Shown here: in pieces, positions 47-14,269 of the stretch
Layout of the letters: each line of letters begins with the position of its first letter
Numbering within the stretch: position 1 is the first letter of the stretch
NCBI GenBank assembly: GCA_021734045.1
Contig: JAIPJR010000067.1
Location: forward strand, 1-14,269
Reading direction: 5' to 3'
DNA length: 14,269 nt
From: Fidelibacterota bacterium
Lineage (GTDB): Bacteria; Fidelibacterota; UBA8477
Notes under the pieces: model-generated
Told to the model about the DNA's origin: nothing
The model's database searches: none
What the model saw: only the letters and a program-made list of their open reading frames with translations
Position numbers and translations under genes: made by a program

Positions 47-120
47 TGTCCGATATTTTCCGGAATCACTGTCCGGTAAAAAACGGAATGCTGTCCGGTA
101 ACTTCCGGAATCGGTGTCCG
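47..120. repeat. Array of TGTCCG repeats, IS21-like transposon end
   Basis: TGTCCG occurs at 47, 70, 92 and 115, so the spacing is 23, 22 and 23 bases, about two helical turns. The first and third units carry the palindrome TTCCGGAA (58-65 and 103-110) and the second a degenerate version. Several short transposase-binding repeats starting with TGT at an end are typical of IS21-family elements; assignment to that family is from memory of such ends. No istA or istB coding sequence is seen in the 46 bases to the left. TG-first repeats on the plus strand would place the outer tip at 47 with the element running right, yet the right side holds a truncated antitoxin gene. The element is therefore a remnant, or the array belongs to an element whose body lies outside the window. 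Confidence 0.5.
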
Positions 121-284
121 AAGTCCTCCGGATTTTCCACCAATATATCCAGATCGCTTTCAGGTGTTGCTTTTCCCCGAACAAAAGAGCCAAAAAGTTT
201 CATTGAGTCGACACCGTACTCTGTTTCCAGTCGGGGAAGCTCTTTCCGTAAAATTTTGCGGAATTGGTTTATTTGCGACTTCAT
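66..284 (-). pseudogene. MNT-family nucleotidyltransferase antitoxin, N-terminal half, truncated by the repeat array
   Basis: The translation shows the minimal nucleotidyltransferase signature: KLFGSFVRGKATPESDLDIL, with the GSF-x-RG turn and the DLD metal-binding pair. Such MNT proteins are antitoxins to HEPN toxins; the characterised MntA AMPylates its partner. Family members run to about 95-110 residues and end in a helix plus a strand of the kind 'LLGxKVDLV'. Here the recognisable sequence stops after DILVENPEDFG near position 121. The remaining codons to the stop at 66 are simply a translation of the TGTCCG repeats. The protein is therefore broken at its C-terminus. No HEPN partner is adjacent and no clear ribosome-binding site precedes the ATG at 284. 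The family call is confident; activity is unlikely. Confidence 0.75.
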
Positions 285-371
285 GAGCTAAACATGCAGA
301 ACTTTCCGGGTAAATGCAAAATCAATAACGGGTTGTTCAGCTTGACGTCAAGGAGAAAGAAGTGGGTGGAA

Positions 372-461
372 TTAAACCACTTCAATAACCAGGTCGACTT
401 TCACGGCCAGCAAATCGCTGAGATGATTTTTCGGTCTGATGACCTCCAGTGATAAATCCAT
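372..461 (-). pseudogene. C-terminal fragment of an MNT-type nucleotidyltransferase
   Basis: This frame reads M-D-L-S-L-E-V-I-R-P-K and then NHLSDLLAVKVDLVIEVV before a TAA stop. 'LSDLLxVKVDLV' is the usual C-terminal helix and strand of minimal nucleotidyltransferases, the part missing from the fragment at 66-284. The catalytic GSF and DLD motifs are absent upstream: the frame stays open for a few codons towards 487 without them, then meets the end of the Hsp70-like gene. It is either the tail of a second MNT gene whose front was lost, or the displaced tail of the neighbouring one. It lies upstream of the N-terminal piece, so a simple frameshift cannot join the two. Short length limits confidence. 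Confidence 0.55.
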
Positions 462-487
462 GGAAATAATCTTAGTGAATCCAGAGC

Positions 488-1912
488 TCATACCATTTCC
501 TGTCCAATAAACCGATTGGTATAATCCTTTACTGGTATCTCCATTACTAAATCATCGATCTCATCCTTATTTAAAATTTCCCCAAACAACAATGGATTAA
601 AACTAAGTCCATAAGCGATTTGCATGCGATGATATTGGGGAAAGGGAAGTCCGGGAGCAATTAAATTATCAGGGTATTCCAGATCCTTCATGATAAAACT
701 ATTAAAATGGAGATTTCTAATTCTATCAGAGGCAAGATTCAGTACCTCTCTGTAGAATTCAATGTTTCTTCCTCCTCCAGTCAGAAAGACGGGTAAACCT
801 GTATCCCATTCATTCGCTTTTGGATTTCTTCTTCGAATCGAATTTACCACAAGGCTTTTCACCATATTAACACACTGCCGCGAAAAATCGTCATCTTCCC
901 TAATTCCGTACCGAAGAGACCTGTCGATGGGGGGAATGGGGTCTCTCAGTGGATTGATCTTCCATAAATCTCTGGTCTGATGAATTACTGCAGACCGATC
1001 CAGGTCACCACTCTCTATCAGTTGGTCAACTTTACCCAGAATTTGTCGGAAATATCGGGTCGTTCCCAACTGCCGAACATCGGTTTCAAAAATACTGTAT
1101 CGGGCAATACCATCGGTGCGACCCACATTGAAAAGTACCGCATCATAAGTCGAGGAACCCACATCAATCAAATAATACATACCATCCAGGCAGGCTGGAG
1201 AAAGAACATAACCAAACATGCTTGCGATAACCTCAGGGACGATATTTATACGTTCGGGTGTAAACTGATTTCGTTCACCACTTCCTGTTTTGTCAAAATT
1301 ACGTTTGCTGCTTTCCAGGTATTTTTTTATTGATTCCAGGTGAATTAGCTCCCCTGAAATAGCTAAAAACCAAGCTGCCAAAGCAACTTGCTTGAATTCT
1401 ATGATTAATTTCTCGTCGGTACAGTTTTTGGCGGGAAGACCAATATTCAGCCAAAATTTTATCTTATTGTCACCGGAGTATTGCGCTTGATTTTCATCAA
1501 TCCAACGAAGTGTATCACGAAGAACAAAAGCCAAATAAGCAGTCGCAATTTCAGCTCCAGAATGTTCGATCCCGTGAATTGTCTTCTTTTTCCCAAATAA
1601 AAATTTGAGCTTGATGTCCTCGATCACAATCCCCTCGCCCGCACGATTGAAAATTCCGTCTTGGGTTAAACTGAGCACTGTGGGCATCAAGTAGGGATTA
1701 TTAGAATCACCATCCATTGCGGGAATTGCGTATTTACGTCGTGTGGACATATCTTGTATGACAACTTTGGTACAGGAGGTACCAAAATCCAGCCCGATAC
1801 CTATCTCTGTGGTCCCTCGTTGCTTGGGAGCAGTAGTATCACGACCCTTGGCTTCTTGGGATGTTTGAGCATTTTGGGAAAAGAGTTGTATAAATTTTTG
1901 GAAGAACCCCAT
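488..1912 (-). CDS. Hsp70/actin-fold ATPase partner of the SNF2 helicase
   Basis: A 474-residue protein with the ATP-binding layout of the actin/Hsp70/sugar-kinase fold. Phosphate-1 is GLDFGTSCTKV (residues 40-50), a connect-1-like stretch is PEVIASMFGY (226-235), phosphate-2 is LIDVGSSTYDAVLF (248-261), and the adenosine motif is VFLTGGGRNIEFY (375-387). The first 34 residues are polar and probably disordered. At 474 residues it holds a nucleotide-binding domain but lacks the substrate-binding and lid domains of DnaK (about 640 residues), so it is not a general chaperone. It could act as an ATP-dependent switch for the helicase. The start is supported by AAGGGG seven bases upstream, just behind the helicase stop, with a 12-base gap that suggests translational coupling. 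Fold assignment is secure; biological role is inferred from the neighbour only. Confidence 0.85.
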   Translation of the reverse strand: MGFFQKFIQLFSQNAQTSQEAKGRDTTAPKQRGTTEIGIGLDFGTSCTKVVIQDMSTRRKYAIPAMDGDSNNPYLMPTVLSLTQDGIFNRAGEGIVIEDIKLKFLFGKKKTIHGIEHSGAEIATAYLAFVLRDTLRWIDENQAQYSGDNKIKFWLNIGLPAKNCTDEKLIIEFKQVALAAWFLAISGELIHLESIKKYLESSKRNFDKTGSGERNQFTPERINIVPEVIASMFGYVLSPACLDGMYYLIDVGSSTYDAVLFNVGRTDGIARYSIFETDVRQLGTTRYFRQILGKVDQLIESGDLDRSAVIHQTRDLWKINPLRDPIPPIDRSLRYGIREDDDFSRQCVNMVKSLVVNSIRRRNPKANEWDTGLPVFLTGGGRNIEFYREVLNLASDRIRNLHFNSFIMKDLEYPDNLIAPGLPFPQYHRMQIAYGLSFNPLLFGEILNKDEIDDLVMEIPVKDYTNRFIGQEMV

Positions 1913-1924
1913 GGTTAGCCCCTT

Positions 1925-4900
1925 TTAGACAATTTTAATAATACCTGCAGCTACTGTTCTTGGCGAAGGATCAATTTTACGCTTATGTTCAATTTCACTC
2001 ATTCGCTGGCTCATTCGACGCGTTAAGGTTTCGATTTGACCTTCAATCAATTTGGTCCAGCGTTCTTTCCCTTCCCGCTGGCTGCGCTCATGACGTTCAT
2101 GCAAACTGGCCAATTGCCGGTTTTTATAGTTTAAGAGGTTCTTAGTTTGGATTTCCGCGCGGTCCTGATTTTCGATTTCGAGCCTATGAACAAATTTCTG
2201 ATATTCGCTCTCCGCGTTTTCCCAACACTTTTCCAATAGTTCTGACCAAGACTCTAAATTCAATTCATCCGGTTTCAACATAAGATCTGATCCAACAATG
2301 GCGGCTTTGTTTACTATTCGTTCTGTTAGATCGCCCTGGATCAGTTCACCTGTATTCACATCGACAGCTTGATAAAAAATGTGATCAATACTTCGGATCC
2401 CAGCTATGGACCAGAGCTTAACTAAAAAAACATACATTCCCGGGATTAGGTGTGAATCGGCGGTATGATTTAATTGTAAGGCAGTTACTTGGTAAAAGGA
2501 AGGTATTCGTTTTTCGATCTGGTTTGAAACGAAACGGACGATGGGATGCCATTGATTAATGCGTTCGATCCGAGTCGGAGGTCTTCCACCCGTAATATTT
2601 GTGAATTGGCATCGGATATTCGTTGTTGAAGCTCGGGAAAATTTAGAATTATAACCGATGTTTTCCTGTCGCATGAACCACTGCAGATCATCAATTGCGG
2701 GAATAGCGAGCGTGACATCAATTAAATCGTGATTCCCTTCATGTATCGGTGAAAAAACTGACCCCGGATAGTGTTCAACAAAAAAATCGCGAATGTAAGT
2801 TAAGAGCTCTTCTCCCCGAATCGTGCGGTTTAGGTCTCTCGCTGCATTTACCTGACGAAGGACATATTCTCCATGGGCAATCAGTTGTGAAGCATTGTCC
2901 TCTAGTTCTTGTTCTTGATGGTGGAGATTTGCAATCGCTGTCTCAGTTTGTGCGATGCGCCTGCGTTCTTGTTCAGGCGTCAGTTTTTCCCGGATTAAGT
3001 CCCCCGTCAATTTTTGTATTTCCTCGCCTAATACAGCCTCAAAATCTCCTAAAGCATACCTGAAAATATTTAATCTATCATACAATGCAGTGAAGATTCT
3101 ATCATCGATTGTATCACGATAGAAGAGGTTCCAAATACTGATTTTCGGTGATCGTTGACCAATACGGTCGATACGCCCGATTCGTTGTTCCACCCGCATG
3201 GGATTCCAAGGTAAGTCATAATTAACTAAGAAACGGGAGAATTGGAGATCGACACCTTCACTAGCAACTTCGGTCGATAGCAAGATATTGGCTGCACTAG
3301 AATCACGGAAATGTTCGATAAATTCATATTTTGATGTTTTTGTGTCCCCGGAAAGAACGGTGGGTTTGAAACCATCTTCCCTTAAGCGTTGATCAAGATA
3401 CCTGAGTGTCGGTTTGAAATAAGAGAATAAGATGACTTTTCCATAGCGATCTTCTTTTAGGTAGTGCGTCAAAATATCGCGTAATCCGATATATTTGGAA
3501 TCAGACGCCCAAAGATTATCGAGATCACCCAGGTCCCCAGAAGCTTCCAATAATCGCCGTACGAGTGGACCTATTTTTTGAGGATCATCATCATACCCCA
3601 GATCTTCGTATAAAGCAGGACCGAATTCAGTAGCTCGGTCTTGCCAGGATTTTAACGCGGCTGCCATCGAACTGGACATTTGTCGCTGAGGAGTTACAAG
3701 CAGGAAAGCTTCAAACTGCCAATGCTCCATAGCATACTCACGCACAAGATTTGTCACATTGTCATAGAATTCCTGCTCATATTGGTTCAGATCTACCCGC
3801 TGTGTGAAGGGCTGGCGAATAACCCGATTTTCAATAACATCTTTTTTACGAGTACGTGTCAAGACCTGCCCAAGGATATTAATATTGTCTAATTCACCCG
3901 CCAGGTCTACTCGACGATCCACATTTCCCAATTCATCGTCAGTTGGGGGGTTCTCAGACAATGCCTGCAACTGTCTGCTTGTAGAGAGAAGCGGATGTCG
4001 TTGAGCGCGGCATACTCCATCCAAGAATTCGGTTTGCGATATCTCATGATTCAGGATCTGATGCGTTAAATTGACGACCGGGGCGTTGGCGTTTAACAGC
4101 TCCTCAAAATCCCTCTCACGCTGAAAGGTGTCAGGATCAACCATGTGCATTAATTGGTATAAATCTCGATTTCTTAGATGGATGGGGGTAGCCGATAATA
4201 GTAATACCTGAGCTGCCACACCATGGAACAATGTTCCAAGATCGGCCGTGACGGTCTCAGGATTCCGCATGTAGTGGGCTTCGTCGATTACGAGCAAATC
4301 GACTAATGGATCATTCTCAGCATTATCCCTCAGATAATAGGCAAGTGAGTTAAGGGAATTGGTACCCCCCTCTTCTTGTGCCCAACCTTTCCTCGGCCTT
4401 AATCCTTGAAAACTACCAATAATTGCCTGATCCAATAGTGGAAGATTGCGCCCCTTATTTAATGCTTTTATAGCTCCATCTTTATTGACAATTTCACCAG
4501 AAATACCAAATTTTTCTTCTAGCTCGTATTTCCACTTTTCACACAACATCGCTGGACACATCACCATTAAGCGTCGATAGTCAAATCGGCTCTTCAACTC
4601 GGTCCAAATAAGACCAGCTTCAATAGTTTTTCCCAAGCCGACTTCATCGGCGATCAACATATTACCCGATGGCGATCTGAGGAAGTTCAGAACAGGTTTG
4701 AATTGGTGAGGATAAAAATCGGTGTTCGTTGTATCAAGACTGTATATCAAATTGGCGACTCGGCCATTTAGGCGAATATGGGTAATGGAACCGCGTAAAT
4801 CTTGTTGCCGACCAAATTTACCTTGACTGAAAAGGTCGAAGATATCTTCATATCCCGTAACGACCTCAAGGAGCTCTTCATTGATCCAGTCTATGCCATC

Positions 4901-5020
4901 AGGAAAATGAACCATTAAATAGGTGTTAGCACCAATCCGACGATCTTTGCCAGAAAGGGTCCCTTGCCTACCAGGATCTGATTTTAATCTGACAAGGTCA
5001 CCGGAATTCATTTGAGACAT
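1925..5020 (-). CDS. SNF2/RapA-like superfamily 2 helicase or translocase
   Basis: A 1031-residue protein with all SNF2 ATPase motifs. Motif I is IADEVGLGKTIEAG (123-136), motif II VIDEAH (244-249), motif III LLSATP (274-279), motif V STEVASEGVDLQ (582-593), and motif VI VEQRIGRIDRIGQ (610-622). The N-terminus (about 5-54) resembles a small KOW/Tudor-like barrel, as in RapA. Beyond the helicase core are a Glu/Lys-rich coiled-coil stretch near 665-720 and a second charged coiled coil close to the C-terminus. Relatives known to me are RapA (RNA polymerase recycling), DrmD of DISARM and DpdE of the 7-deazaguanine DNA cluster; none of their partner genes is present. ATG at 5020 is preferred because GAGGTGG lies nine bases upstream; a TTG at 5038 would place that site inside the gene. 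It is first in the operon with the Hsp70-like gene. It probably moves along double-stranded nucleic acid using ATP; the substrate is unknown. Confidence 0.9.
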   Translation of the reverse strand: MSQMNSGDLVRLKSDPGRQGTLSGKDRRIGANTYLMVHFPDGIDWINEELLEVVTGYEDIFDLFSQGKFGRQQDLRGSITHIRLNGRVANLIYSLDTTNTDFYPHQFKPVLNFLRSPSGNMLIADEVGLGKTIEAGLIWTELKSRFDYRRLMVMCPAMLCEKWKYELEEKFGISGEIVNKDGAIKALNKGRNLPLLDQAIIGSFQGLRPRKGWAQEEGGTNSLNSLAYYLRDNAENDPLVDLLVIDEAHYMRNPETVTADLGTLFHGVAAQVLLLSATPIHLRNRDLYQLMHMVDPDTFQRERDFEELLNANAPVVNLTHQILNHEISQTEFLDGVCRAQRHPLLSTSRQLQALSENPPTDDELGNVDRRVDLAGELDNINILGQVLTRTRKKDVIENRVIRQPFTQRVDLNQYEQEFYDNVTNLVREYAMEHWQFEAFLLVTPQRQMSSSMAAALKSWQDRATEFGPALYEDLGYDDDPQKIGPLVRRLLEASGDLGDLDNLWASDSKYIGLRDILTHYLKEDRYGKVILFSYFKPTLRYLDQRLREDGFKPTVLSGDTKTSKYEFIEHFRDSSAANILLSTEVASEGVDLQFSRFLVNYDLPWNPMRVEQRIGRIDRIGQRSPKISIWNLFYRDTIDDRIFTALYDRLNIFRYALGDFEAVLGEEIQKLTGDLIREKLTPEQERRRIAQTETAIANLHHQEQELEDNASQLIAHGEYVLRQVNAARDLNRTIRGEELLTYIRDFFVEHYPGSVFSPIHEGNHDLIDVTLAIPAIDDLQWFMRQENIGYNSKFSRASTTNIRCQFTNITGGRPPTRIERINQWHPIVRFVSNQIEKRIPSFYQVTALQLNHTADSHLIPGMYVFLVKLWSIAGIRSIDHIFYQAVDVNTGELIQGDLTERIVNKAAIVGSDLMLKPDELNLESWSELLEKCWENAESEYQKFVHRLEIENQDRAEIQTKNLLNYKNRQLASLHERHERSQREGKERWTKLIEGQIETLTRRMSQRMSEIEHKRKIDPSPRTVAAGIIKIV

Positions 5021-5079
5021 AACAATGGACCACCTCAAAAATTACTGATTCTTTTTAATGTGCCCTACTATTAGTACCA

Positions 5080-5108
5080 TCTAAACTTTGTGTTTAATGT
5101 TTAGTCAA
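5080..5108 (-). promoter_or_regulatory. Possible promoter with operator-like inverted repeat for the helicase operon
   Basis: On the minus strand TTGACT (5108-5103) matches a -35 box. A poor -10 candidate TTTAGA (5085-5080) follows at 17 bases. The perfect inverted repeat CTAAAC...GTTTAG (arms 5081-5086 and 5099-5104, 12-base loop) covers the spacer and both boxes, the usual place for a repressor site. The surrounding 5039-5179 is A+T rich and has no convincing gene. The -10 match is weak, and sigma factor preferences of this group are not known from the sequence. Confidence 0.3.
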
Positions 5109-5179
5109 CTATCCTCAATTTCATAATTATTGATGGAAAGCGATCTTGGGGATGAAAATATGTAATTCTGCCTTGTGTA

Positions 5180-5638
5180 TCAACATAAGTATTCCTTAAA
5201 AAATAACCTCTTCATCGTTGCAAGGATATAGCAAGCTTTCGCATTTTCTGATTCTGAGCTGACACAAATTCTATAAGCGGTTGAAAATGCATGTTCTAAT
5301 CGTAGATAATCTCTCTCTACCGATGGTGTTTTAGTGACAGAGTTCACCTCGGTTTGGGTCATCATGGTTAAGATTAATTTAAGAACTTTATCTGGTTTTG
5401 CTCTCCATCCTTTCACTGAAATCTCCACCTCACACCCCAACACTTCGAGCAGGTTCACCATCTTGTTGGTGGACTTGGTGGTGTTGATCTGGTCCATGAG
5501 GCGGTAGAACTGAGCTGGAGACGTGCCAATTGCTAGCGCTTCACTCAAACCCCTGAAGATCTCGTCGCACTGCAAATCTGGACCAGTCAATCGTTCCCGC
5601 TGATACCGGTGTTGCCACAAACCGGAAAACCGCCACAT
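5180..5638 (-). pseudogene. Remnant of an XRE-type HTH antitoxin with an aberrant C-terminal extension
   Basis: Residues 37-76 (about 5530-5411) read IGTSPAQFYRLMDQ, then an N-x-x-K-S stretch and LLEVLGCEVEISVK. This is the recognition helix and tail of a Cro/C1-type (XRE/HigA-like) antitoxin, a family whose tail normally ends near that point. The first HTH helices are missing or altered: ahead of the match is only CDEIFRGLSEAL, as though about 15-20 residues were deleted. The frame then runs 76 further residues with no family I recognise. The first 98 bases overlap the lipoprotein gene in another frame, so the ATG at 5638 is probably not a true start. No toxin gene is adjacent. It is most simply an eroded antitoxin fused by rearrangement to the end of the lipoprotein gene; a functional regulator of the downstream helicase operon cannot be excluded. 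Confidence 0.5.
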
Positions 5639-6422
5639 TCTGAGAATCTGTGTCCATAAACAGGTCTAAAGTGTCTTCCCTTATCTGGTAACGATAACGA
5701 AACAGGGTGATAAACTTCCAGAGCGGAACGGTAGCGGAATCGCAGGAATCACTGTAGGTTTCCTTGTACAGATTAGCGAAAGCGAGTGTATCCTGATAAA
5801 GAGAAACCTCCCCAAATCGCGTAACGCATGGATCTTCCAGCCCATAATAGCCCGTGGCTGAAAAATTCAGGAAATACCCTTCCGGAACATAAAATGGCGG
5901 CACCGTGTCAAGGACTAAAAACCTGGAATACTGCCAATTGGGTTCATATAACTCTGATGGTGAACCAACCCGGTAGGTCTTGCGCCATCCACTTTTTTTG
6001 TCTGAGGGATCGGTCACCGTGCAGGAAATTTCCAGGTCTCCCACGTTTCCGGTATGGTAGGTGACCCGATTGGTATCGGTCACAATAGTATCGTTATATA
6101 TGTTCCATACAAACGGGTCGTATTCCCGTGAGGTGAAAATCCATGTATATGTGAGCGATACATCATCAGAATCAACTGCTGTACAGCGCAATTCATAATC
6201 TCGGTCAAACAGGAGCGTGTTTCCAATGATAAGCGTGTTCATAAAATGAACCGATGTAATCACGGGCGCTGAATTATCGCCTAATTCAAAATTCCCATTA
6301 TTATTCGGATCGGATGGCGTTCTCTCACAGGCAATCAGAATCAGAATTCCTATCAGTAACGCGTAAATGGTGTGCCGCTGCTTTTTTGAGTTTCGCCGTG
6401 GAACTGCTGCGGAATGCATCAT
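5541..6422 (-). CDS. PKD-like domain lipoprotein
   Basis: A 293-residue secreted lipoprotein. The signal peptide has basic residues at 9-17, a hydrophobic core ALLIGILILI (21-30) and a lipobox ending LIAC, giving Cys32 as the lipidated residue. The mature N-terminus is Asp/Asn-rich. Residues about 50-150 resemble an Ig/PKD fold: APVITSVHF, a DSDDVSLTYTWIF strand pair, and LEISCTVTDPSDKKS. No catalytic motif is seen, so it is probably a surface binding or structural protein. ATG at 6422 is supported by GGGAGG about six bases upstream. The last 98 bases overlap the XRE remnant, so the C-terminus may be an accidental one created by a junction near 5570-5590. An 11-bp inverted repeat sits in its leader. 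Single gene, with no obvious operon partner. Confidence 0.8.
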   Translation of the reverse strand: MMHSAAVPRRNSKKQRHTIYALLIGILILIACERTPSDPNNNGNFELGDNSAPVITSVHFMNTLIIGNTLLFDRDYELRCTAVDSDDVSLTYTWIFTSREYDPFVWNIYNDTIVTDTNRVTYHTGNVGDLEISCTVTDPSDKKSGWRKTYRVGSPSELYEPNWQYSRFLVLDTVPPFYVPEGYFLNFSATGYYGLEDPCVTRFGEVSLYQDTLAFANLYKETYSDSCDSATVPLWKFITLFRYRYQIREDTLDLFMDTDSQNVAVFRFVATPVSAGTIDWSRFAVRRDLQGFE

Positions 6423-6439
6423 GGTTACCTCCCGGTAAA

Positions 6440-6489
6440 AGGATGACCCGATTCAGAGAGAGGGGCGGCTTTTCCAGCCGGGTCATCCT
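6440..6489 (-). promoter_or_regulatory. Perfect 11-bp inverted repeat in the leader of the lipoprotein gene
   Basis: AGGATGACCCG (6440-6450) and CGGGTCATCCT (6479-6489) are exact reverse complements separated by 28 bases. In the lipoprotein mRNA this forms a G+C-rich stem followed by UUUU (CATCCTTTTACC), ending seven bases before the GGGAGG ribosome-binding site. The loop can form a smaller GGCT/AGCC hairpin that competes with the base of the long stem. This resembles an intrinsic terminator or attenuator, though four U residues make a weak tract. It might instead be a protein-binding site. Confidence 0.5.
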
Positions 6490-6734
6490 GATTGTGTGCG
6501 ATTTACGTGACGGGTGAAGATAGTCCGGGATTCGGGATTTCACAAAGGTGAAAAATTCCGCAGCCTGATTGAAAATCAATTCGGGTACGGTTCTAGCGTA
6601 TTAATACCATGGTAAAAGATGAAACCTGTCCGGGCAGCGTGCACTTAGATGAGCAGCAATATATCGAAGCTTGCCACCTACCTTGATTTAAGTAATTCTG
6701 CTCGAAATAATTGTTCAGTACGCATGACATACAG
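6490..6734. other. Stretch with no recognisable gene
   Basis: Neither strand gives a protein with recognisable family features here. A 6-bp hairpin TTTCACaaagGTGAAA lies at 6538-6553. The region separates the minus-strand lipoprotein from the plus-strand toxin-antitoxin relic; the start of the decayed antitoxin presumably lay at its right end. Confidence 0.5.
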
Positions 6735-6909
6735 TACATAGATGTAATCCCCGGTCGCCCGGCCGATGTACTTATCACACCGGAAGAATACAACCGCCTT
6801 GGCCTTTCTGGCTTCGGTTCAGCAGGGCATCGCCGAAGCTGATGCCGGCAAAATAATTTCCACGGATGAAGTGAAAGAAAAGCTGGCGGAATATTGCAAA
6901 AGTCGGTGA
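6735..6909 (+). pseudogene. Decayed Phd/YefM-type antitoxin
   Basis: From 6735 the frame reads YIDVIPGRPADVLITPEEY-NRL, matching the 'GRPxAVLISPEEYERL' core of Phd/YefM antitoxins. At about 6801 the match jumps to the next frame, where AFLASVQQGIAEADAGKI and then STDEVKEKLAEYC follow to the stop TGA at 6907-6909. This is the usual toxin-binding tail. The first half of the DNA-binding domain, including a start codon, is missing. The stop overlaps the toxin start as TGATG, the normal coupling in such pairs. A one-base frameshift plus loss of the N-terminus makes it non-functional. Confidence 0.6.
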
Positions 6910-9687: not shown

Positions 9688-10194
9688 TTATTCATCCAGA
9701 ATCAAGCTGAATGCGGTGGTAAGTTTCAGGACATTTTGACTCTCGCGTTGAAGATCACGGGCCAGCTTATTAGCCACATTGTACATGACCTGAAAACCCA
9801 CGTGGGGGTATTGCTTCAGAATTTCCAAAAACTTATCCCGCTCCACCTCAACAATTTCACAATCAGTTTCCGCCTTCACGGTGGCGGTGCGATTCACATT
9901 CTCGCGCACCAGTCCCATTTCACCAAAAAAGGGTTTTGCATCACCGGTCAGCGTAATGAGCGCTTTATCCCTTGTGTCATTGGTGGCATCTGCCGGCTGA
10001 AGTGTGAGCGCTTTTGAGATGGAAACGGTCCCTTTTACGAGAATTTCAATGGCGGTTCCCGGCTCGCCTTCACTGATGATGTTTTGTCCCTCCGGAACAG
10101 ATATTAACTCAAATGCAGGCCGGAAAACACCAACCTCATCCTCAGCCAAGCCCAGGAAAAGGGGACAACTGGCAATACTTTTGATAAAACTCAT
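9688..10194 (-). CDS. Stand-alone cyclic nucleotide-binding domain protein
   Basis: A 168-residue protein made of one cNMP-binding domain. The beta-roll spans roughly 30-120, with EGQNIISEGEPGTAIEILVK in front and a phosphate-binding cassette FFGEMGLVRENVNRTATVKA (89-108). The Glu92 and Arg102 equivalents, which hold the ribose and cyclic phosphate in CAP and cNMP-gated channels, are both present, so ligand binding is plausible. The C-terminal 40 residues are helical; no HTH follows, so it is not a CRP/FNR regulator. ATG at 10194 is preferred over an upstream start at 10260 because GGAGG precedes it closely and the domain begins there. It follows the channel stop by 19 bases, so it probably acts as a soluble sensor subunit of that channel. 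Physical association is inference. Confidence 0.85.
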   Translation of the reverse strand: MSFIKSIASCPLFLGLAEDEVGVFRPAFELISVPEGQNIISEGEPGTAIEILVKGTVSISKALTLQPADATNDTRDKALITLTGDAKPFFGEMGLVRENVNRTATVKAETDCEIVEVERDKFLEILKQYPHVGFQVMYNVANKLARDLQRESQNVLKLTTAFSLILDE

Positions 10195-10213
10195 GAAAAC
10201 CTCCGGGCGCTGG

Positions 10214-11368
10214 TCATTGCAGCACGATAATCTGATCTCGCTCAGTGAGGATATAGTCATCAGGTGGATTGATTCGCAGGTTGGTACGAACTTCCTCTGA
10301 CAATGTCCGGCCTGACTCTTTCAGTTTTCTGGCAATAAATGCATCCAGATAATCCCCCGATTCAGCCGATAGAAATTGATCCACACCCATGGATTCTTCT
10401 TCTGAATAGACTCCCAGGACAGTCTGGCCTTTTTGCTCACGAAAGTCGAAAAACAACTCCCGGTAAGGCTTCTCGATAAACTGCCGGGGAACGGGAACCA
10501 GCGTGAGATGTTGATCGGTTCCCCGCATCACCTCGCTGAGAAACAGGGGCAATCCCGGCTTGAGCAGTTGGACAGCGCTTAAAAAATCACTGAATTCATC
10601 TGCCACAACGATGCCGTCAGCTTTCGCACGGCGCAAATTGGTGCGGTTTTCCCGTAATCGCAGATAGACGTAAACTTTTACTTTGGGGGCAATGGCTTTG
10701 ATGGAGTAGGTGGTAAGGGTGGTTTTTTCGTCCGCATCCTCATCGTCCACCGCTGCCTGGCTGGGCAGAATAAATACAGCCCGGGCTTTATCCACATTGG
10801 CATTTCGCAGAGTCTGCTCCTTGGTGAAATCACCCCTGACGAAGGCCAGGTCGTAGGATTTGAATTTTTGGGTTAAATCTTGAATTTTCTCGATGGGAAG
10901 ATCGTTTACCAGAACAACCTGGAGCCAGGCTCCCTTGGCCTGCTGAAACAGCACTTCCAGCATTCGTTCCGCGTTTTCGTTCCACCCGCAAATGATAAAA
11001 TGATTATGATAATTTACTTTTTCCAAGCCCCGGCCCTCCCGGATTTTGCGTGCCACGAAAATAGAGGAAATCGTAGCGGTGAAAAATGAAATAAGTGCCA
11101 CGGAGAAGAACATCATGATAGACGCAGCGATTTTGGCCGTGGTTGAATGGGGTGTCAAATCCCCGTATCCCACCGTTGTCATGGTCACCCAGGCCCACCA
11201 GAACGCATCAAAAATATTGGTGATTGAGTGTCCATCGCTGCCCCGGTCAAATAAATAGACGGCACCGCCGCCCAGCAGCAAAATCAACCACAATAATCCC
11301 AGGATAGTAAGGACACCTTCGTCATGCAGGTGCTTCAATCCGCGAAAAATAATATTTTCCCGCCACAT
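10214..11368 (-). CDS. Two-TM potassium channel with RCK domain
   Basis: A 384-residue channel subunit. TM1 is about residues 19-40, the pore helix and filter run 52-70 with TMTTVGYGD, and TM2 is about 79-105. TVGYGD is the K+ selectivity filter, so this is a K+ channel and would be tetrameric. A cytoplasmic RCK (TrkA-N-like) domain follows: HFIICGWNENAERMLEVL (123-140) is the first strand and nucleotide-type turn, and FVRGDFTKEQTLRNANV is the classic second region. A C-terminal RCK-C-like part ends in NPPDDYILTERDQIIVLQ. The layout is that of MthK/Kch. No voltage-sensor segments are present. No ribosome-binding site is obvious ahead of the ATG. It is followed by the cNMP-binding gene and preceded by a possible 21-codon peptide. 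Inner-membrane location is expected; gating ligand unknown. Confidence 0.92.
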   Translation of the reverse strand: MWRENIIFRGLKHLHDEGVLTILGLLWLILLLGGGAVYLFDRGSDGHSITNIFDAFWWAWVTMTTVGYGDLTPHSTTAKIAASIMMFFSVALISFFTATISSIFVARKIREGRGLEKVNYHNHFIICGWNENAERMLEVLFQQAKGAWLQVVLVNDLPIEKIQDLTQKFKSYDLAFVRGDFTKEQTLRNANVDKARAVFILPSQAAVDDEDADEKTTLTTYSIKAIAPKVKVYVYLRLRENRTNLRRAKADGIVVADEFSDFLSAVQLLKPGLPLFLSEVMRGTDQHLTLVPVPRQFIEKPYRELFFDFREQKGQTVLGVYSEEESMGVDQFLSAESGDYLDAFIARKLKESGRTLSEEVRTNLRINPPDDYILTERDQIIVLQ

Positions 11369-12959: not shown

Positions 12960-14269
12960 TTAGCGTAAAAGCACGACTCTTTCCAAAATTGACTGCTTCG
13001 CTTGTGTAACCCTCACCATATAAATGCCGGATGAAACGTCACGTCCCGCTCGGGTGCGACCATTCCAGGAAATTCTCTGCGTACCATTACCGGCCGGAAT
13101 ATTCCATTGCTGAATCAGCTGGCCCTGCAGGGTAAAAAGCGCCACCTGTGTGAACACCGATTCTGACATTTTAACCGCCAGGTTTATGCTGGCATTGAAG
13201 GGATTGGGATAGGCGTGGAGCAGTTGATAGTTCGCCGGCACGCCCGTTTCCACCATGGCTGAAGCGGGATCATACTGGATGGTTACCGCGCGCGTTACCG
13301 TCCCGGCGTTTGAATCATTATTAAGAATATGCACCTCACCCGTATAGTCTCCCGCGCCATTATCCGGCGCAATCGCCACGCCCAGTTGCTCTACCTCCCC
13401 GGGTGCAATGGTCAGTGGTGTGGTGGTGAAAATCGTTAACCAGCTGTCGTTCTCATTCACACTGATAATTTCTAAGTCCGCATCCCCGGCATTAGCCACG
13501 GTCAGCCAAGCCGTATCTGAACGGGTCATGGAGTAAATCATGGTTTGTGGCGCCACCGCAATTTGTGGTGCGGTTGAGACGGTGGCGGTTCCCACAAAAC
13601 TGGAGATTCTATCCAAAAACTCCGGATGATCCACAAAAGGGTTCCTGTTGTGCTGATGCTGGTCAATACCATTATTTCGGTCTATTTCCTTCTGGCTCAC
13701 CGGGTCCATCCAATACCATTCCCGCAAGGTTGTCTCCTGGTCCTCACCCAGATATCCGCCCAGATTACCATAGCGCGTTATGAAATAAAAAATGGCCCGG
13801 GCAGCGTCACCTTTATGGACATCCCTCGGCTCGAACACCGTTTCCCCATAGCTGTTTTGTCCCAAAACAGAGCCCCCTTCCTGCCAGGTGACATTCTGAG
13901 TCACGTTGTCAAAGGGATAATTGGACCGTCGGCCGTTGGCATCCTGATGGGTGGGAAACAGGTGGTGAATATCGCCACGCATTGGATTGTCCGAATCAAA
14001 AAAGCTCTGGGGCCAGGTGTGTTCGCAATTGATAGGATTGGGGTACGTGCCGGTGCTGCCATAAGGCCAGGCTTGCGTAAATCCCGTATACACGCCAGAG
14101 AGGGAATCGTTGTGATTATCAATAATCCCATACATGGTGGCGCGAGCGCCGTTATACCCCAGATCGGTCTGACCGGGGAAAAGGTTCGGCAGCGCAGCTT
14201 TTAACTCCTCGCCAAATTTGTTAAATGTCAGGGCATAATCCGCACTGCTCCGTCCGGCCCCGGCTAATG
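12960..14269 (-). CDS. Secreted endonuclease I family nuclease with C-terminal sorting domain, 5' end outside the window
   Basis: The frame is open to the right edge, so the N-terminus, including the expected signal peptide, is missing. An ATG at 14135 is internal: the 44 codons before it continue the family (FGEELKAALPNLFP, then DLGYNGARATMYGI). The catalytic domain shows NCEHTWPQS, the counterpart of the NREHVWPKS motif in which Glu binds Mg and His is the general base in Vvn-type nucleases. GDIHHLFPTHQDANGRRSNY follows, with the metal-binding Asn region. These enzymes cut DNA and RNA without sequence preference. About 190 residues on, an Ig-like domain (DTAWLTVANAGDADLEIISV) follows, then a FlgD-like domain starting AYPNPFNASINL and closing in a basic tail with ERVVLLR, typical of cell-surface or type IX-like sorting. 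It is probably extracellular and used to degrade environmental nucleic acid. Its stop lies 48 bases from the convergent radical SAM stop, with no clear terminator between. Confidence 0.9.
   Translation of the reverse strand, partial: LAGAGRSSADYALTFNKFGEELKAALPNLFPGQTDLGYNGARATMYGIIDNHNDSLSGVYTGFTQAWPYGSTGTYPNPINCEHTWPQSFFDSDNPMRGDIHHLFPTHQDANGRRSNYPFDNVTQNVTWQEGGSVLGQNSYGETVFEPRDVHKGDAARAIFYFITRYGNLGGYLGEDQETTLREWYWMDPVSQKEIDRNNGIDQHQHNRNPFVDHPEFLDRISSFVGTATVSTAPQIAVAPQTMIYSMTRSDTAWLTVANAGDADLEIISVNENDSWLTIFTTTPLTIAPGEVEQLGVAIAPDNGAGDYTGEVHILNNDSNAGTVTRAVTIQYDPASAMVETGVPANYQLLHAYPNPFNASINLAVKMSESVFTQVALFTLQGQLIQQWNIPAGNGTQRISWNGRTRAGRDVSSGIYMVRVTQAKQSILERVVLLR

Follow-up and report, generated by a model that had tools for sequence, protein, structure and literature searches.

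A conserved gene pair of a SNF2/RapA-like motor and an Hsp70-fold ATPase: a candidate two-gene defense module

Two adjacent genes in a 14,269-nucleotide stretch of DNA from a Fidelibacterota bacterium (contig JAIPJR010000067.1, in the following the window) encode a SNF2/RapA-like motor and a protein with the predicted fold of an Hsp70 ATPase domain, and the two genes recur side by side in distantly related prokaryotes. Our interpretation, which we hold with modest preference, is that the pair constitutes a mobile anti-invader module of two genes, in which the Hsp70-fold protein switches the motor. It is very likely that both proteins act together, and the genomic context makes a function in the defense against invading DNA probable, while a role of the Hsp70-fold subunit as a nucleotide-state switch on the motor is about as probable as its opposite. 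A stand-alone unit of a SNF2 and an Hsp70-fold protein appears to be new.

The locus and its site in the genome

Both reading frames are uninterrupted and lie on the minus strand, and the SNF2 gene therefore precedes the Hsp70-like gene (Table 1). A preliminary description of this DNA had given the lengths of the two proteins (1031 and 474 aa), the gene order, the 12-bp gap and the ribosome-binding signals, all of which were confirmed in the sequence. Scans for promoters and terminators yielded signals no higher than in shuffled sequences.

In a genome of the same genus (G244, contig L111), blastn found the window regions 208-353 and 5423-6761 conserved at 87-93% identity and gave no match between them; G244 has a different segment of 960 bp instead of the pair between these shared flanks, with contig L111 ending near the left boundary of the variable segment. 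The same flanks with a different segment mean that, within the genus, the pair has been acquired, lost or swapped for another segment. The variable segment of the window contains no gene-sized frame beyond the pair and the tail of an antitoxin relic, and as a different segment replaces positions 354-5422 in G244, the system consists of two genes here. At the position of the pair, the same-genus contig has an unrelated frame of 221 aa (L111:9191-9856).

The antitoxin relics that had been noted at the flanks are real. The HigA-like gene, a relic in the window, is intact in G244 (182 aa), and the truncated MNT-type gene of the left flank matches the NCBIfam MntA model weakly and under its cut-off. 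The site occupied by the pair, between toxin-antitoxin genes, may be a hotspot of exchange. The island that the preliminary description had proposed is supported by defense-rich neighbors in relatives, but in the window itself the antitoxin relics are the sole trait of a defense island. Elsewhere in the window, the gene of a potassium channel with an RCK/TrkA-N domain overlaps that of a cyclic-nucleotide-binding protein (9688-11368), possibly together a two-protein gated channel, and a frame at 12960-14267 resembles, as judged by eye, the gene of a secreted, endonuclease I-type protein bearing a C-terminal sorting domain.

Table 1. Features of the pair, its surroundings and related loci (positions refer to the window unless residues or loci are named)
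Feature	Position	Strand	Remarks
SNF2/RapA-like ATPase gene	1925..5020	-	1031 aa, ATG at 5020
Hsp70-fold ATPase gene	488..1912	-	474 aa
Ribosome-binding site of SNF2 gene	5030..5036	-	GAGGTGG, 9 nt before ATG (sequence)
Ribosome-binding site of Hsp70-like gene	1919..1924	-	AAGGGG, in the 12-bp gap, 6 nt before ATG
Variable segment carrying the pair	354..5422		blastn of window against L111 (same-genus genome G244)
HigA-like antitoxin gene relic	5180..5638	-	N-terminal part gone via a deletion of ~640 bp
Truncated MNT-type nucleotidyltransferase (antitoxin-like)	66..284	-	left flank; Pfam NTP_transf_2 6e-10
SNF2 protein, N-terminal small beta-barrel domain	residues about 9-53
SNF2 protein, two-lobed motor	residues about 90-660
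SNF2 protein, RapA-like C-terminal part	to residue 1031
Loci with sacsin-type partner	L089-L092, L158, L171, L172, L175, L249		also L084 (higher score)

The motor protein

Pfam (Helicase_C, 5e-19; SNF2-rel, 1.3e-18), NCBIfam and PADLOC concur that the larger protein is a SNF2/RapA-like motor, and the statement that its SNF2 motifs are intact is borne out by the Pfam matches and by the invariance of these motifs among 72 relatives. The closest solved structure to its AlphaFold2 model (pLDDT 85.8, based on 72 sequences) is RapA (Foldseek/VIA; Foldseek 1e-33), and 807 residues of the predicted model align with RapA 8t0l, residues 58-1031 being placed on 109-966. As this match covers nearly the full length, the part beyond the motor is predicted to be RapA-like as well, whereas the larger N-terminal part of RapA itself has no counterpart. 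Domain and structure searches recognized no nuclease domain in the SNF2 protein.

The architectural likeness raises the question of whether the pair might simply be a housekeeping RNA polymerase recycling factor of the RapA type with an accessory ATPase and without any link to defense, since among solved structures RapA comes closest, along almost all of the protein, and has its role in transcription, not in defense. In the lineages that have it, RapA proper belongs to the conserved genes of the chromosome, whereas the gene of the window has an Hsp70-fold partner gene and is mobile rather than core. The score of the SNF2 protein on the curated RapA model is 149 bits, with a cut-off of 576. The accessory and patchy spread, the occurrence on plasmids, the defense-rich surroundings and the exchange within a genus all argue against a housekeeping factor, which we regard as highly improbable.

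The Hsp70-fold partner

The 474-aa protein has no match in Pfam, PADLOC (2.0.0) or NCBIfam, and the Pfam Hsp70 models match none of its 68 relatives. Its AlphaFold2 model (pLDDT 87.5) nevertheless has the predicted fold of an Hsp70 nucleotide-binding domain: residues 35-442 of the model superpose on residues 1-351 of DnaK (309 residues, best Z 25.5), and the best 50 matches listed in the structural comparison are all Hsp70/Hsp110 relatives or complexes with one. The protein stops about 30 residues past the nucleotide-binding domain, and a substrate-binding domain is therefore absent. The earlier assignment as an Hsp70-fold ATPase without such a domain thus agrees with the model.

Among the 68 relatives, D42, G44, K49, K101, E227, D250 and G252 are invariant and T255 is nearly so. 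We take K101, E227, D250 and T255 to be the equivalents of the DnaK catalytic residues K70, E171, D194 and T199, and the spacings E227-D250 (23) and D250-T255 (5) are the same in both proteins. The window partner thus shares the predicted fold and the spacing of catalytic residues with the nucleotide-binding domain of DnaK/Hsp70, but it has no substrate-binding domain, no Pfam Hsp70 match, and is paired with a DNA motor.

The two ends of the protein behave differently. The tail of about 30 residues is conserved and its length is kept in most relatives, with an ending of the type [YF][VI]xK[DE]xx in many and a DELYPK-like ending in others, whereas the N-terminal extension may be as short as 13 or as long as 324 residues. 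A constant tail together with a variable head suggests that the tail docks on the constant partner. In three relatives (L021:10167-11603, L024:3063-4637, L040:5012-6589), two CxxCxG repeats (also written CxxCxGxG) that resemble the DnaJ zinc finger replace the usual tail. It is conceivable that the Hsp70-fold protein is a sensor, which licenses the motor upon binding a phage protein or a chaperone pathway perturbed by phage; the Hsp70 fold itself, the high, arms-race-like variability of the N-terminal extensions and the DnaJ-like repeats at the end of the three relatives would agree with such a role, but the domain by which Hsp70 proteins bind substrates is absent, and we consider a sensor function unlikely.

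Conservation and distribution of the pair

A profile made from six SNF2 proteins was run against one genome per species and gave 80 loci. Of the 77 loci from this search that no contig end truncates, 74 have an Hsp70-like gene as same-strand neighbor, with gaps mostly between -4 and +30 bp, and in several cyanobacteria the order is reversed with the Hsp70-like gene first. The three exceptions have a broken SNF2 gene (L034), no partner (L070) or a sacsin-type partner (L084). In the reverse direction, using an Hsp70-like profile in Gammaproteobacteria and Cyanobacteria, a SNF2 gene or its remnant adjoined in 9 of 9 cases, and the genes are adjacent in all six plasmid matches. The adjacency that had been described for a single locus therefore holds in other genomes as well. 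The pairwise distances of the two proteins are strongly correlated (Mantel r 0.877, 65 loci; reached by none of 5000 permutations, the best of which gave 0.13), which indicates that the two genes are transferred and evolve jointly.

Carriers are spread over ten or more bacterial phyla (among them Pseudomonadota, Cyanobacteriota, Spirochaetota, Acidobacteriota, Myxococcota, Planctomycetota, Verrucomicrobiota, Gemmatimonadota, Thermodesulfobacteriota and KSB1) and, in archaea, include Methanosarcinaceae. Cultured examples are Mesorhizobium huakuii (L049), Pseudomonas composti (L026) and an Aminobacter with the pair on a plasmid (L004). The pair is nonetheless rare and patchy, and sometimes plasmid-borne: apart from the genome of the window, one of 244 genomes in the phylum has it, as do one of 273 Gammaproteobacteria and six of 243 Cyanobacteria. 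Of 61 complete loci, 36 have no other gene in the same direction within 60 bp of the pair, and the two genes are therefore the usual unit. Clustering of the neighbors gave no constant third gene, the commonest neighbor family being present in 13 loci and never touching the pair, and no SNF2-Hsp70 fusion was seen among the loci read. The Hsp70-like gene has no match among phage records, and scanning viral contigs directly for it gave nothing, while a scan for SNF2 detected a divergent version of the pair on one IMG/VR contig (L170).

On two cyanobacterial chromosomes (L103:6499-9864, L104:5642-8848), amid housekeeping genes, a broken Hsp70-like gene lies next to a SNF2 gene that is reduced to about 500-540 aa and seems to lack most of the motor; such pairs are decaying or repurposed. 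Near-identical copies of the pair are present on contigs assigned to different phyla (L009 and L010; Desulfocapsaceae and Draconibacterium), which reflects either a recent transfer or a misplaced contig.

Defense genes in the neighborhood

Among the immediate neighbors of the pair, PADLOC recognized 129 families for one set of 65 neighbors and 208 for another of 69 (threshold 1e-10), and one family among 99 control genes from arbitrary places in the carrier genomes. As these are counts of families, and a single protein may match many of them, the contrast is the result, not the number. The pair thus does not show the core housekeeping context that had been considered as evidence to the contrary. 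The families found among the 134 neighbors include BREX, DISARM, Hma, restriction and candidate families, and on plasmids, genes of Hachiman, type I-D CRISPR and HsdR are found close to the pair. At L049, L051 and L058, the pair is embedded in larger DUF499/DUF1156/PLD-helicase-like clusters, names that derive in part from reading the sequences by eye. The enrichment could, however, reflect mere sharing of islands.

A sister group with a different chaperone-fold partner

With a scoring profile built from Hsp70-paired members and applied to the SNF2 sequence alone, most SNF2 proteins in the range of 549-690 bits precede a large protein that has a Pfam sacsin (Hsp90-fold) domain or resembles such proteins (Table 1). 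The sacsin-type partners that were scanned resemble PADLOC TmtA with 174-329 bits. TmtA is presumably Tiamat, which is listed as a one-gene system, and the partner in the window differs from it in being Hsp70-fold. L089-L092, which lie on plasmids, have a further protein of about 180-210 aa encoded ahead of the SNF2 gene. Taking all SNF2 proteins of at least 549 bits, a chaperone-fold partner is present in 95 of 99 edge-free cases (85 Hsp70-fold, 10 sacsin-type); at 348 bits or below, it is present in one of 79 (all loci read).

As two unrelated chaperone-type ATPases fit into one slot, what is required there seems to be a conformational switch driven by ATP, not a nuclease, and the interchangeable chaperone-fold partner is the best hint at the mechanism. 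The Hsp70-fold protein might instead be a specialized chaperone whose main task is to fold, assemble or protect the SNF2 protein, without any part in its working cycle, as one might expect of an Hsp70 fold with intact ATPase residues that is the obligate neighbor of a single candidate client. Such a chaperone would have to act without a substrate-binding domain, and the exchange for an Hsp90-fold partner is compatible with both readings; we judge the probability of a pure chaperone function to be low.

Relation to DISARM and other systems

The preliminary description had pointed out that the expected partners of DISARM, Zorya or Dpd systems are absent. This stands for the window, in which no drmA, drmB, drmC or methylase gene is present, but the SNF2 protein belongs to a wider DrmD/RapA-like group, a few members of which are found in DISARM loci. 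DrmD of class 1 DISARM (NF038317; PDLC02623) is likewise SNF2/RapA-like, equal in length and homologous over the full length, and some relatives of the pair are located in DISARM loci. The SNF2 protein could thus in principle be an orphan DISARM part, i.e. a leftover DrmD or the partner of a DISARM system encoded elsewhere in the genome. Its score of 857 bits over the full length of the PADLOC DrmD model PDLC02623 would agree with this, as would three loci (L042, L045 and L061) in which the pair lies inside DISARM-like loci (DrmMI and DrmA recognized at L042, DrmMI and DrmB at L045) and the SNF2 proteins exceed the NCBIfam DrmD cut-off with 632-694 bits. The window protein, however, reaches 402 bits on the NCBIfam DrmD equivalog (NF038317), for which the cut-off is 610, and the boundaries of the variable segment enclose two genes only, none of them a drm gene.

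Canonical DrmD proteins are also different in their company. Six of 398 Pseudomonadota genomes have a DrmD above the NCBIfam cut-off (939-1372 bits; L142-L147), and at none of these six loci does an Hsp70-like gene lie beside it; the next same-strand gene is large and, as judged by eye, drmMI-looking by its start or length. On the SNF2 profile of the pair, these canonical DrmD proteins reach 193-272 bits, whereas four pair members newly found in the same survey reach 1162-1337 bits and all have the Hsp70-like gene. In a fast tree, made by a quick method and without inference of the root, the members from L042, L045 and L061 group as a single derived branch with full support inside the Hsp70-paired set, and due to this single derived position it seems that a DISARM branch has recruited the pair. 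At all three loci, a GHKL-like ATPase gene lies just upstream of the pair. An orphan DISARM part is therefore quite improbable and was ruled out as the main reading by the cut-off, the gene content, the tree and the six canonical DISARM loci. The pair is not canonical DISARM.

Chaperone-related ATPases have been described in other restriction and defense systems. CnuD of type III CoCoNuT is an Hsp70-like protein that retains nucleotide-binding and substrate-binding domains, has degenerate Walker A-like motifs and is accompanied by McrBC homologs (PMC11090510), whereas the window partner consists of the nucleotide-binding domain only, has intact motifs and is paired with a SNF2 protein; neither a McrB-like NxD GTPase nor a CnuC partner was found among the window proteins scanned. 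In restriction operons, GHKL ATPases of the MORC/paraMORC kind accompany SFII helicases, SNF2 among them (PMC2292703). The principle of a chaperone-related ATPase beside a superfamily II motor is common to these systems and the pair, but the fold is GHKL rather than Hsp70, and nucleases and methylases are encoded alongside. By analogy only, a SNF2 motor is combined with an actin-fold partner also in the eukaryotic SWI/SNF and INO80 complexes with their actin/Arp subunits. The PADLOC library has no entry for a SNF2-Hsp70 pair, in line with the earlier suggestion that the pair is undescribed, and the open-licence literature on Hsp70 or sacsin with SNF2 in defense yielded the CoCoNuT, MORC and HEPN papers, in which the pair is not described.

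A possible switching mechanism

How could such a pair act against an invader? In the mechanism that we favor, the RapA-type motor would travel on the double-stranded DNA of the invader, or on invader DNA bearing polymerase, and the Hsp70-fold protein would bind the motor as an obligate partner. ATP/ADP cycling of the Hsp70-fold protein would then alternately restrain and activate the motor. The conserved C-terminal tail would sit at the position where Hsp70 has its linker to the substrate-binding domain, and in such a constellation the motor would replace the substrate-binding domain. Likely parallels are Hsp70 itself, in which this domain drives the substrate-binding domain of the same protein, and eukaryotic SNF2 remodellers with their actin/Arp subunits.

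As neither protein has a recognized nuclease, the effect on the invader would have to come from the motor or from host nucleases; other recognized effectors were likewise found in neither protein. The motor itself may strip or stall replication or transcription complexes of the phage, or alternatively it may expose the DNA to host nucleases.

SNF2 motors are frequent in defense, and the pair offers a testable answer to the question of how they are controlled, namely by a dedicated chaperone-fold ATPase, in a minimal setting of two genes without nuclease or methylase. Tools that name such SNF2 proteins DrmD overlook the true partner, and the SNF2 profile score provides a clean sequence criterion that predicts a chaperone-fold partner. 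It is possible, although we hold this only tentatively, that these proteins represent a prokaryotic SNF2 family that works only with an Hsp70- or Hsp90-fold ATPase as regulator under nucleotide control, as a counterpart in defense of the actin/Arp modules of eukaryotic SWI/SNF, and that the pair is a separate defense system from which a branch of DISARM has taken its DrmD.
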